From Alkalibacterium putridalgicola (lineage in GTDB: Bacteria; Bacillota; Bacilli; Lactobacillales; Carnobacteriaceae_A), in assembly GCF_900109825.1 (NCBI RefSeq), contig NZ_FOBL01000018.1:1-54951 (forward strand): 54,951 nt of DNA, in the 5' to 3' direction. The translations under genes were made by a program, and so were the position numbers. Below the pieces are notes generated by a model that worked only from the letters and a program-made list of their open reading frames with translations, had not been told where the DNA came from and made no database searches. Shown one piece after another: positions 1 through 54,951 of this stretch. Each line of letters begins with the position of its first letter. The first letter of the stretch is position 1.

Positions 1-190
1 ATGGAGGATATGAGTGAACAGTATGAGCAAAGAAATGTCGTACTCGAGAGGCACTGAATGTCTGAGTGAACACTTTTGATGTTGAGATGTCGTTCTCGAG
101 AGGCACTGAGTATCTGAGTGAACATTTTTGAGGGTGAGATGTCGTGCTCGGGAGTCTGCGAATGTTCGAGGGAACATTTTTACATCAAGT
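1..190. repeat. 52-bp imperfect tandem repeat array (array 1)
   Basis: Three recognisable units start at 35, 87 and 139, each exactly 52 bp after the last, and a partial unit lies before 35, so the array continues off the left edge. The anchors ATGTCGT (35, 87, 139) and TGAGTGAACA (11, 63, 115, with CGAGGGAACA at 167) keep the phase. Units 1 and 2 differ at six positions; unit 3 is more diverged. Unit 3 contains the dyad AATGTTC-GAGG-GAACATT. Because 52 is not a multiple of three and stops occur, the array is not coding. Function unknown. Confidence 0.9.
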
Positions 191-314
191 ATGCTTTTGG
201 ACCGACATGAAACCCTGCACTTTTGAAAATAATCAAGGAAATCATAGAAGCATATGACTCAATCAAGCGGTGCATAATCTCTGACAAGATGTATGGAAAG
301 AAGGCGTCAGTTTC

Positions 315-323
315 TGTTATAAT
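315..323 (+). promoter_or_regulatory. Extended -10 promoter of pcrA
   Basis: TGTTATAAT is a perfect extended -10 element (TGnTATAAT) about 27 bases before the first pcrA start. No good -35 is seen at 17 bp, as is common for extended -10 promoters. Confidence 0.55.
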
Positions 324-349
324 AAAACAATGTATGAACACCTGAAAGG

Positions 350-2596
350 ATGAAAAAAGTGGTACTGCGAGAAGATATTTTACAGGGGATGAACCCCAGG
401 CAGAGAGAGGCTGTTGCTCACACCGAAGGGCCGTTACTGATCATGGCCGGAGCCGGCTCAGGCAAAACGCGTGTGCTGACACACAGGATCTCTTATCTGA
501 TACAAGAAAAAGGCGTGAATCCATGGAACATATTGGCGATCACCTTTACCAACAAAGCCGCTTCAGAAATGAAAAGTCGAGTGGCTTCACTTGTGACAGA
601 TGGCGGACTGGATGTTTGGGTCTCGACCTTTCACTCCATGTGCGTGCGGATTTTAAGAAGAGAGATCGACCACATCGGATACAGTTCGAGTTTTACGATC
701 GCTGATCCCGGTGAACAGCTGACCTTGATCAAAAAAATACTTAAACGACTGAATATCGATCCGAAAAAATACAACCCGAGAGCGATCCTTTCGGAAATCA
801 GTAATGCAAAAAACAACCTTCAAAATGAGAAAGAATATCGCGTGGAAGCGACGGATTACTTCGGTAAGATCGTAGCGGACTGCTATGATCACTACCAGCG
901 TGAGCTGAGACAGGCGGAAACGCTGGACTTTGATGACCTGATCATGCTGACGGTTCGTCTGTTCGAAGAACACAAAGATGTCCTGCAGTACTATCAGACA
1001 AAATTCCAGTATATCCACGTGGATGAATATCAGGATACCAACCATGCCCAGTATAAACTTGTCAACCTTCTGGCTGAACGGTTTAGAAATATCTGTGTCG
1101 TGGGTGACGCTGACCAGAGTATCTACGGCTGGCGCGGGGCTGATATGGAAAACATCCTGAACTTTGAACGGGATTACAAGGATGCGAAAGTCGTTTTACT
1201 GGAGCAGAATTACCGTTCTACGAAAAATATCCTGAAAGCGGCCAATGATGTCATCTCGCATAACTCCAAACGAAAAGATAAAAGCCTATGGACGGATAAA
1301 GACGGTGGCGAATCCATCACCTACTATCGTGCAGGCAATGAACACGAAGAAGCGCGCTATGTCATTCAGCATATCCAGCAGGAACTGGAAAAAAATTCGA
1401 ATCGGGAATACGGCGATTTCGCCGTATTATACCGGACCAATGCCCAGTCCCGTGTAATGGAAGAAACGCTGATCAAGACAAACATCCCTTACCGTATGGT
1501 CGGCGGACATAAGTTCTACGATCGTAAAGAGATCAAGGATGTCCTGGCGTATCTCACACTCATCGCCAATCCTAAAGACAATCTCAGTTTTGCGCGAGTT
1601 GTCAATGAGCCTAAACGCGGTATCGGAGCGAGCACAGTCGAAAAGCTGGCGCTGGCAGCAGAAGAAATGGGCTGGAGTTTGTATGAAGCGGCGCTGAATG
1701 CAAACAGCATCAACTTGTCAGCACGTGCTGCCAAGAAAGTTGAAGGCTTTGCTCTGATGATCCAGGATTTCCGAAAAATGGCAGAGTTTTTGAGCATCAC
1801 AGAGCTGACCGAAGAAGTACTGAACAAGTCGGAATACCTGCCGACCCTAAAAAAAGAACGCACACTTGAGGCAGAAACGCGTGTCGAAAATATCGAGGAA
1901 TTCCTCACAGTAACGAATCAGTTCGATAAAGAGGAACAGGAAGATGACAGTCTGATCGCTTTCCTGACTGACTTGTCACTCATTTCGGACATCGACAAGC
2001 TGGAAGAAGAACCGACGAGCGAGATCACACTGATGACTTTGCATGCCGCCAAAGGTCTGGAGTTCCCGATCGTTTTCCTTATCGGGATGGAAGAGGGACT
2101 TTTCCCGCTCTCCCGTGCTGAAATGGAAGAAGAAGAAATGGAAGAAGAAAGACGTCTGGCCTATGTTGGGATCACGCGGGCCGAAGAGAAACTGTACCTG
2201 ACCAACGCCATGTCCCGTGCCCTGTATGGCCGTGTCCAGTCTAATCGTCCTTCCCGTTTCCTGGAAGAAATGGATGATGACGTTCTGGATGTCGAGGAAT
2301 CGAATTCACTAAAACCCTTCTCAAGCGGGATGTATAAAGGCTTTGGGAGCAGTTCAAATGACCCATTTGATAAAAAGACGAAGAAAAGAAAAAATTATGT
2401 CTCGCATGCCACAGGAAACAGCGGTGCTGAAAAATTGGAGTGGCAAGTGGGAGAAAAAGTTAAGCATAAGGTTTGGGATGTCGGGACAGTCGTGAAAGTC
2501 AGTGGCGAAGGCGACGACCTGCAGCTGGATATCGCCTTCCCCGGCATAGGCATCAAACCCTTACTGGCAAGTTTTGCACCGATTGAAAAAATCTAA
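350..2596 (+). CDS. pcrA: ATP-dependent DNA helicase PcrA (UvrD/Rep family)
   Basis: Superfamily 1 helicase that unwinds DNA 3'-5' in repair and replication of rolling-circle elements. The 748-residue protein has all helicase motifs in order: Walker A AGAGSGKT (33-40), [40 protein letters not shown] and [13 protein letters not shown], then a linker and the small C-terminal PcrA domain ([17 protein letters not shown]). Length is normal. The ATG at 350 sits directly on the purine-rich AAAGGATG, so the GTG at 359 (about 9 bases after AAAGGA, giving [12 protein letters not shown]) may be the real start. It heads the conserved run with ligA 19 bases downstream, as in other Bacillota. Identification is certain; only the start is open. 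Confidence 0.97.
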
Positions 2597-2615
2597 GTGT
2601 AGAAAGGATAATCCA

Positions 2616-53901: not shown

Positions 53902-53934
53902 ATAAGCATGTATAAAGCAACTGGAGGGGTTATA

Positions 53935-54456
53935 ATGAGTGACCTGATAATCAAAGAGGTTGATCTGGATTATATAGACAAAATCAAAGCCATCAGTGAA
54001 AAAACATTTGTTGAAACATTCGGCTCTGATAACACAGCAGAAGATATTGAAAATTACCTTACGGAACATATCAATACGCAACAAGTTAGGCAGGAGCTTT
54101 CCAACCCTGCTTCGCTCTTTTATGCTGTTGAAGTGGATGGAAATCTTGTAGCTTATATGAAACTGAATCTTGATGATGCTCAGACAGAACAAGGGTACAG
54201 CAATTCTCTGGAGATTCAGCGTCTCTACGTATTGAAAGAGTATAAAAAGCAGGGCATCGGCCGCAAGCTGATGGATAAGGCTATCGAAGAGGCGGAAAGC
54301 AGGCAGATGGACTTTGTCTGGCTGGGAGTCTGGGAAAAGAATACGAAAGCTATAAAATTTTACGAAAAAAGCGGATTTGTCATGTTTGATAAACATGTCT
54401 TTAAACTAGGCGATGATGAACAAACTGATTATTTGATGAAATATGAGTTAGTTTGA
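53935..54456 (+). CDS. GNAT-family N-acetyltransferase
   Basis: 173 residues from ATG 53935 after CTGGAGGGGTTATA; the longer frame to 53830 runs across the leader hairpin. GNAT motifs: LFYAVEVDGNLVAYMKLNLD, SLEIQRLYVLKEYKKQGIGR (acetyl-CoA loop QGIGRK), and the C-terminal VWEKNTKAIKFYEKSGFVMF. It resembles the spermidine/polyamine or peptide acetyltransferases of Bacillota; substrate unknown. Confidence 0.92.
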   Translation: MSDLIIKEVDLDYIDKIKAISEKTFVETFGSDNTAEDIENYLTEHINTQQVRQELSNPASLFYAVEVDGNLVAYMKLNLDDAQTEQGYSNSLEIQRLYVLKEYKKQGIGRKLMDKAIEEAESRQMDFVWLGVWEKNTKAIKFYEKSGFVMFDKHVFKLGDDEQTDYLMKYELV

Positions 54457-54513
54457 TCTATGGATTGATTATAAGGAAGAAGTCGGAAACAGGTTCAAAG
54501 AGGAGGAATGCAA

Positions 54514-54693
54514 TTGGGTATTTTTATAGGTCTCGTTTTTATTTTAGTTGTGATGGTCACCGCCTATGAGCGTATGACCGCAGGCAAAGATGTCAGTAAA
54601 CATGAAAGAAAAGTAAACTGGACAGTATGGATCGTGATCGGCGCAATAGTCATTGGGTTGATTGGCTGGTATTTATTGGGCTGGCGATTTTGA
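54514..54693 (+). CDS. Small two-pass membrane protein
   Basis: 59 residues from TTG 54514, seven bases after AGGAGG; the ATG at 54508 lies too close to that site. Two membrane segments flank a basic loop with KDVSKHERKVNW. Function unknown. Confidence 0.6.
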   Translation: MGIFIGLVFILVVMVTAYERMTAGKDVSKHERKVNWTVWIVIGAIVIGLIGWYLLGWRF

Positions 54694-54816
54694 TCAGGAA
54701 TCAAAATAATATGTTTATCTGTGGTCAGTATTATAATGACCTGAAAAGCATTTTCAAAGTATTCACCTTAATAGTCGGCTTTTAAAATGTGGAAGTGACA
54801 AGTTATACTGAGATCT
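54694..54816. other. Leader of array 3 with a degenerate repeat unit
   Basis: No gene. GGAAGTGACAAGTTATACTG (54791) resembles the GGAACAAGTTTCTGAG part of the units that follow, about 50 bases earlier than expected, so it looks like a decayed unit. Confidence 0.4.
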
Positions 54817-54951
54817 ATGAAAAACCTGTTCCAAAACAGATACTGGAACAAGTTTCTGAGGTAAGTAGATGAAAAACCTGTCCTAAAACGGATATTGGAA
54901 CAAGTTTTTGAGGTAAGTAGATGAAAAACCTGTTCCAAAACAGATAATGGA
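54817..54951. repeat. 52-bp tandem repeat array (array 3)
   Basis: ATGAAAAACCTG occurs at 54817, 54869 and 54921, exactly 52 bases apart; the third unit is cut by the window end. Units 1 and 2 differ at five of 52 positions. In unit 1, AACCTGTTCCA and TGGAACAAGTT form a dyad with one mismatch, and a smaller hairpin CTGTT-CCAA-AACAG lies inside. A period of 52 breaks the reading frame, so it is not coding. Confidence 0.9.

Follow-up and report, generated by a model that had tools for sequence, protein, structure and literature searches.

Dispersed intergenic arrays of 51/52-bp period in Alkalibacterium and other Lactobacillales: probable helix-phased protein-binding sites

The window, i.e., the whole stretch of 54,951 nucleotides analyzed here, is one complete contig (C47, 1–54951) of the 2.60-Mb draft genome of Alkalibacterium putridalgicola, which consists of 72 contigs. 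It harbors three intergenic arrays on the forward strand, and since the window spans the entire contig, arrays 1 and 3 are truncated by the contig ends. Array 1 (1..190, + strand; TRF, lag scan, and unit clustering) is made of 52-bp units of the delta family and lies upstream of pcrA, whose product is 98% identical to PcrA of Alkalibacterium subtropicum. The best lag among those tested is 52 (69.6% identity, z 11.5), and TRF delimits the array to 35–181 with a period of 52. From synteny with A. subtropicum, we infer that array 1 continues, on its far side, at the start of contig C42. Array 3 (54765..54951, + strand; TRF, lag scan, and clustering) consists of 52-bp units of the gamma family. 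Its best lag is also 52 (89%, z 12.1); TRF places it at 54817–54951, preceded by a degenerate unit at 54765–54816 with an approximate start that was judged by eye. Five draft contigs (C31, C35, C42, C47, and C49) start or stop in or near 51/52 arrays, and an A. subtropicum array (L164:17820-18420) contains a long run of N, a sign that arrays of this type break assemblies.

Array 2 (43358..43730, + strand; lag test and copy comparison) is a 373-bp element flanked by genes with DUF6671 and GGDEF domains. It comprises about seven degenerate 52-bp units, carries the half-site TATTGACnACTCA in both orientations, and has inverted ends (43378–43389/43718–43729). The repeats span 43378–43729, i.e., 352 bp or 6 × 52 + 40. 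The array was undetected in the TRF run. Among the 50 lags compared within its gap, 52 scores highest (120/300), and none of 400 dinucleotide shuffles equals that value at any lag. The earlier note had claimed a common 52-bp period for the three arrays, which is confirmed by lag 52 ranking first in each of them. An Rfam scan of the window returned no family at the gathering score. The half-site motif, which was taken from array 2 itself, occurs 15 times with at most four mismatches, compared to 2.7 on average and at most nine in shuffles. Forward sites are positioned at 43379, 43483, 43535, 43587, and 43639 (intervals of 104, 52, 52, and 52) and reverse sites at 43615, 43666, and 43716 (intervals of 51 and 50); the remaining seven are weaker or out of step. 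Four copies of the element are found in A. subtropicum, one orthologous and three elsewhere, with 64–84% identity to array 2. Neither the ten other genomes of the genus that were searched nor the rest of the window genome contains a copy. A coding role was rejected, as all six frames of every copy contain stops, and no target-site duplication was seen by eye. Terminal inverted repeats combined with a length of 52k + 40 were considered as a general rule and rejected; array 2 fits, while elsewhere the residues are scattered and several arrays are unmatched. Array 2 is a dispersed element built on the same design as the other arrays. Just 3′ of it, at 43861–43924, lies a 64-bp inverted repeat without a loop, whose 32-nt arms are 88% complementary; one arm carries GATTGGACGGTA, which is close to the alpha half-site.

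TRF arrays with a period of at least 30 were surveyed in 828,832 bases, or 32% of the window genome. The sampled stretches come mostly from contigs with a BLAST match to array 1 or 3, which inflates the array density. In this sample, 32 of 33 arrays have periods of 51, 52, or multiples thereof (17 at 52, 12 at 51, and one each at 102, 104, and 255, the last being 5 × 51); the remaining array has a period of 30. A lag scan over the first 428,832 bases brings out lags 51, 52, 102, and 104, and all remaining lags with at least two loci, except 103, are multiples of 3, the pattern expected of coding repeats. With the TRF arrays masked, lag 52 retains nine loci (array 2 included) versus 0–2 at other lags that are not multiples of 3. 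Lag 51 retains 24 loci, but the counts at lags 33 and 42 are similar (22 and 20). Within the sampled third of the genome, 51/52 and their multiples dominate; the contrary outcome named in the earlier note, many different periods among which 52 is nothing special, is not seen.

The class extends to relatives. In A. subtropicum, five of eight arrays in 400 kb are of the 51/52 type (the remainder have periods of 31, 33, and 300), as are 11 of 15 in 160 kb picked around known matches. All nine A. gilvum arrays belong to the class (3/3 in 60 kb, one of them 103 = 51 + 52, and 6/6 in a partly chosen 80 kb). A. pelagium has two of three in 60 kb and one of two in 100 kb, the other two arrays having a period of 30. 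The class is absent from 60 kb each of A. kapii, A. olivapovliticus, sp. AK22, and sp. 20 (whose sole array has a period of 31) and from 40 kb of one further genome of the Alkalibacterium survey (G008); A. kapii has one such array in stretches chosen around known matches. Four more distant control genomes of the same order (100 kb each) have none among three arrays. Trichococcus alkaliphilus, T. pasteurii, and T. patagoniensis harbor 51-bp arrays with a different half-site, and T. palustris shows weak matches and a 202-bp array with half-site steps of 50, 51, and 100. The one Trichococcus array examined closely (L066:17047) is flanked by two longer genes, with short overlapping ORFs present. 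The 40-kb samples from T. collinsii and from Marinilactibacillus contain no array of the class. Desemzia incerta has a single instance in 80 kb, with a 52-bp unit repeated 6.3 times in a convergent gap; beside it lies a 237-bp tandem array of about six copies, perhaps coding (L280:14355-15879). Many loci keep the fixed period, which is shared by at least three genera, with a single array standing for the third. A blastn search with one long alpha array as the only query gave no match in plasmids and phages, and literature searches limited to open-licence full texts listed no description of these arrays.

Clustering divides the units into four large families and nine other clusters. The period is 51 in alpha, 52 in beta, 51 and 52 in gamma, and 52 and 51 in delta. 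In the five families profiled, every 51/52-bp unit is composed of two inverted half-sites of 13–16 bp and two spacers that alternate between 4–8 and 14–19 bp and conserve little sequence. The segment lengths (half-site, spacer, half-site, spacer) are 15-14-15-7 in alpha, where the final 7 is derived from the 51-bp step, 14-6-13-19 in beta, 16-4-15-17 in gamma, 14-16-14-8 in delta, and 13-6-13-19 in Trichococcus. Computed from these lengths, the half-site centers are spaced alternately by about 19–22 and 29–33 bp. The half-sites hold 1.2–1.5 bits per position versus 0.2–0.6 in the spacers, so the sequence is not free, contrary to the earlier note. Read from the AT-rich end, they resemble one another by eye (alpha, CATTnGACGTACTCA; delta, AAATGTCGCACTCA; gamma, TATTGnGACnAGTTTT; beta, TATTCCCGGAACTC; and the array 2 half-site given above). 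No clear palindromes are present within single half-sites. The TGTTC/GAACA and ACTC/GAG motifs pointed out earlier as shared between arrays turn out to be fragments of half-sites. The accompanying view that the units are unrelated holds less well, as the delta and gamma families of arrays 1 and 3 are joined in one single-linkage component, although single linkage chains easily.

The conservation of unit length was assessed from steps between profile anchors in the range of 45–58 bp; this range and the fixed-length unit models may conceal odd units and larger indels. Among 260 unit-to-unit steps, 249 are at the mode of their stretch and 11 are off, each by 1 bp; substitutions between adjacent units total 3151. 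As a noncoding control, BLAST alignments of at least 300 bp between the window genome and A. subtropicum were used outside ORFs of 80 codons. They contain 337 indel events and 3920 substitutions, i.e., one indel per 11.6 substitutions, at which rate about 272 length changes are expected in the arrays against the 11 observed. The resulting deficit of about 25-fold is a rough figure, because every indel enters the control, whereas the steps register net changes within 45–58 bp. Copies of array 2 behave alike, with 0–4 indel events per pair at 58–84% identity and, between copies L289 and L290, 155 substitutions and no indel. A cruder count disagrees: global alignment of 216 adjacent pairs gave 205 gap events and 8.3 substitutions each, without depletion. 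We discounted this test because compensating gaps and phase errors are confounded in it, and paired gaps leave the length unchanged; at face value it nevertheless counts against selection on length. The step lengths and the array 2 copies support the earlier proposal of selection on spacing, and unit length seems, as far as these comparisons reach, to be under selection.

These counts bear on two other explanations. The arrays could be ordinary minisatellites from one ancestral 52-bp unit that spread and diverged, with a period that is inherited and unselected. Weak similarity links the families, their half-site skeletons are alike, copy number shifts by about whole units, and the crude alignment count lacks indel depletion. 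We nevertheless consider this origin unlikely, since neutral drift should alter unit lengths far more often than was seen (272 expected, 11 found), the spacers diverged yet retained their lengths, and 51/52 persists in three genera with unlike sequences. Alternatively, a copying or recombination process with a built-in ruler might create new units of 51/52 bp whatever the local sequence. This would explain a single length across many sequence families and genera. The register, however, is held after about 15–32% unit divergence, and array 2 copies retain their length at 58–73% identity, so length is kept after birth; the families also have half-site skeletons in common, and there is no surplus of tyrosine recombinases. 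A length-fixing copying mechanism, the second option of the earlier note, is consequently less likely, and we judge it improbable. Tyrosine recombinase sites had been a separate candidate. The inverted arms with a 6–8-bp gap resemble the layout of a recombinase core site. Phage_integrase matches are few in the window genome and A. subtropicum (four and three), and ten other genomes have 2–15 (2 and 3 in two of them, 6–15 in the other eight); the candidate was rejected.

The inverted half-sites also allow for hairpins. Arrays of RNA or single-strand DNA hairpins, similar to REP/BIME elements and mobilized by a RAYT-type (Y1) transposase, would account for the inversion, and extragenic, partly convergent placing is reported for REPs (PMC3733652). 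Some consensus units fold well, and Y1_Tnp matches are present in the window genome (six) and A. subtropicum (four). The window genome's six are pieces of 48–85 aa, compared to open frames of 138–165 aa for longer matches elsewhere. Base pairing tells against this explanation. In 108 alpha units, Watson–Crick counts are within 2 of independence at 14 of 15 pairs, the exception being 48 versus 42.8. Most pairs in 28 Trichococcus units are near independence as well (pair 10-23, 13 versus 15.3), with three pairs at the AT-rich end above it (2-31, 15 versus 9.9; 3-30, 25 versus 21.9; 4-29, 26 versus 18.3). An RNA fold of the array 2 copies was rejected, as its covariation term is unfavorable (+7.8) and many pairs are broken, although 11 of 87 are doubly changed. 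Hairpins moreover require no fixed unit spacing. Since A. kapii and A. gilvum bear arrays without a Y1_Tnp match, RAYT was rejected as a general motor, and we hold out little prospect for hairpins as a whole. The half-site pairs hardly covary, which makes selected hairpins unlikely; that each half-site is conserved largely independently fits recognition of the duplex by a protein.

Genes were called as ORFs of at least 100 codons, so some placements may be miscalls; 28 of 42 arrays had a gene on both sides. Fifteen of these lie in convergent, nine in tandem, and four in divergent gaps, whereas 442 array-free gaps of at least 150 bp comprise 55 convergent, 290 tandem, and 97 divergent ones. The convergent enrichment (15/28 versus 55/442) has a p of 8e-7. 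The 20 proteins that flank 11 arrays are ordinary and do not include ParB; the recurrent families are ABC transporters, at three arrays, and LacI, at two arrays that occupy the same place in two species.

Taken together, the dispersed arrays are probably double-stranded protein-binding sites that are phased on the helix at five turns per unit, with their spacing under selection. One DNA-binding protein, or a related set, would bind the arrays as double-stranded DNA, and bound proteins would contact neighbors on one helix face at distances of about two and three turns, five in all. Such an assembly would run along the array, and a unit of the wrong length would hence mostly be removed by selection. 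Units would be gained and lost by recombination or slippage between them, and the arrays would be tolerated, or useful, between convergent genes. The five-turn, same-face phasing was put forward in the earlier note and is adopted here; we infer it, including the two-plus-three-turn arrangement, from geometry. That the letters vary by place while the length is nearly always 51/52 suggests proteins seated at exact spacings. Counting against the binding-site reading, several half-site families within one genome are not easily explained by one protein, only eight of 44 consensus units give p < 0.05 in a whole-unit dyad test, three Trichococcus pairs exceed independence, and both 51 and 52 occur as periods. 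The likely role lies in organizing the chromosome, or in controlling supercoiling or transcription at the ends of genes. More tentatively, the arrays may represent an element class defined by helical geometry instead of sequence, with half-sites at two and three turns in five-turn units, spread over at least three genera, whose half-site families would diverge in step with a matching set of paralogous DNA-binding proteins polymerizing on the array. Extragenic repeats are usually grouped by sequence; what these arrays have in common is their length and the spacing of their half-sites, and length changes are few. The arrays point to a phased nucleoprotein structure on the chromosomes of some Lactobacillales and would offer a clear example of noncoding bacterial DNA in which helical spacing is selected.

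By analogy, the layout is comparable to BIME-2 or sopC arrays, although two REP/BIME features failed when tested. The BIME-2/REP elements of enterobacteria consist of dispersed extragenic motifs with regular spacing and alternating orientation, as seen here; most REPs are located in gaps whose neighboring genes point the same way or converge, and DNA gyrase and IHF bind to BIMEs (PMC2817692 and PMC3733652). The present arrays are likewise extragenic and frequent in convergent gaps (28 of 42 placed). They differ in that the palindrome is not kept by base pairing (three Trichococcus pairs excepted), that two array-bearing genomes lack a Y1_Tnp match, and that the period is fixed at 51/52 over unlike sequences and genera. 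The sopC/parS site of plasmid F contains twelve 43-bp tandem repeats, and every repeat includes a 16-bp inverted repeat to which a ParB dimer binds (PMC9178275). It shares the tandem units with an inverted repeat; sopC is a single locus on a plasmid, adjacent to the genes for its own proteins, unlike the many chromosomal loci, the several sequence families, and, for the 11 arrays checked, the ordinary flanking genes here. In contrast to CRISPR, with its conserved repeat and unique spacers, an array repeats its units in full.

Mycobacterial MIRU and other VNTR loci likewise consist of tandem repeats between genes, with units of roughly 50 bp or more and a variable copy number; they are not known to hold one length over unlike sequences. 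As in minisatellites and VNTRs, unit number differs between relatives: one array has two units in the window genome and four in A. subtropicum, so that the two versions differ by 105 bp, i.e., two units plus one base. Sequence can change at one place too. Upstream of pcrA, a delta array in the window genome faces an alpha array in A. subtropicum. Where a penicillin-binding protein gene neighbors a LacI gene, the window genome and A. gilvum carry 51-bp arrays of dissimilar sequence in the intervening gap (placed in the latter via BLAST flanks and its LacI gene), and another gap holds a 51-bp alpha array in the former and a 52-bp array in the latter. No 51/52 signal was found in A. kapii at the place facing locus L105 or in A. 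subtropicum next to the sequence that flanks array 3 on its left. A tandem array of another length, 225 bp in 2.7 copies that are 96% alike, is present in Salimicrobium halophilum (L072:4134-4733).
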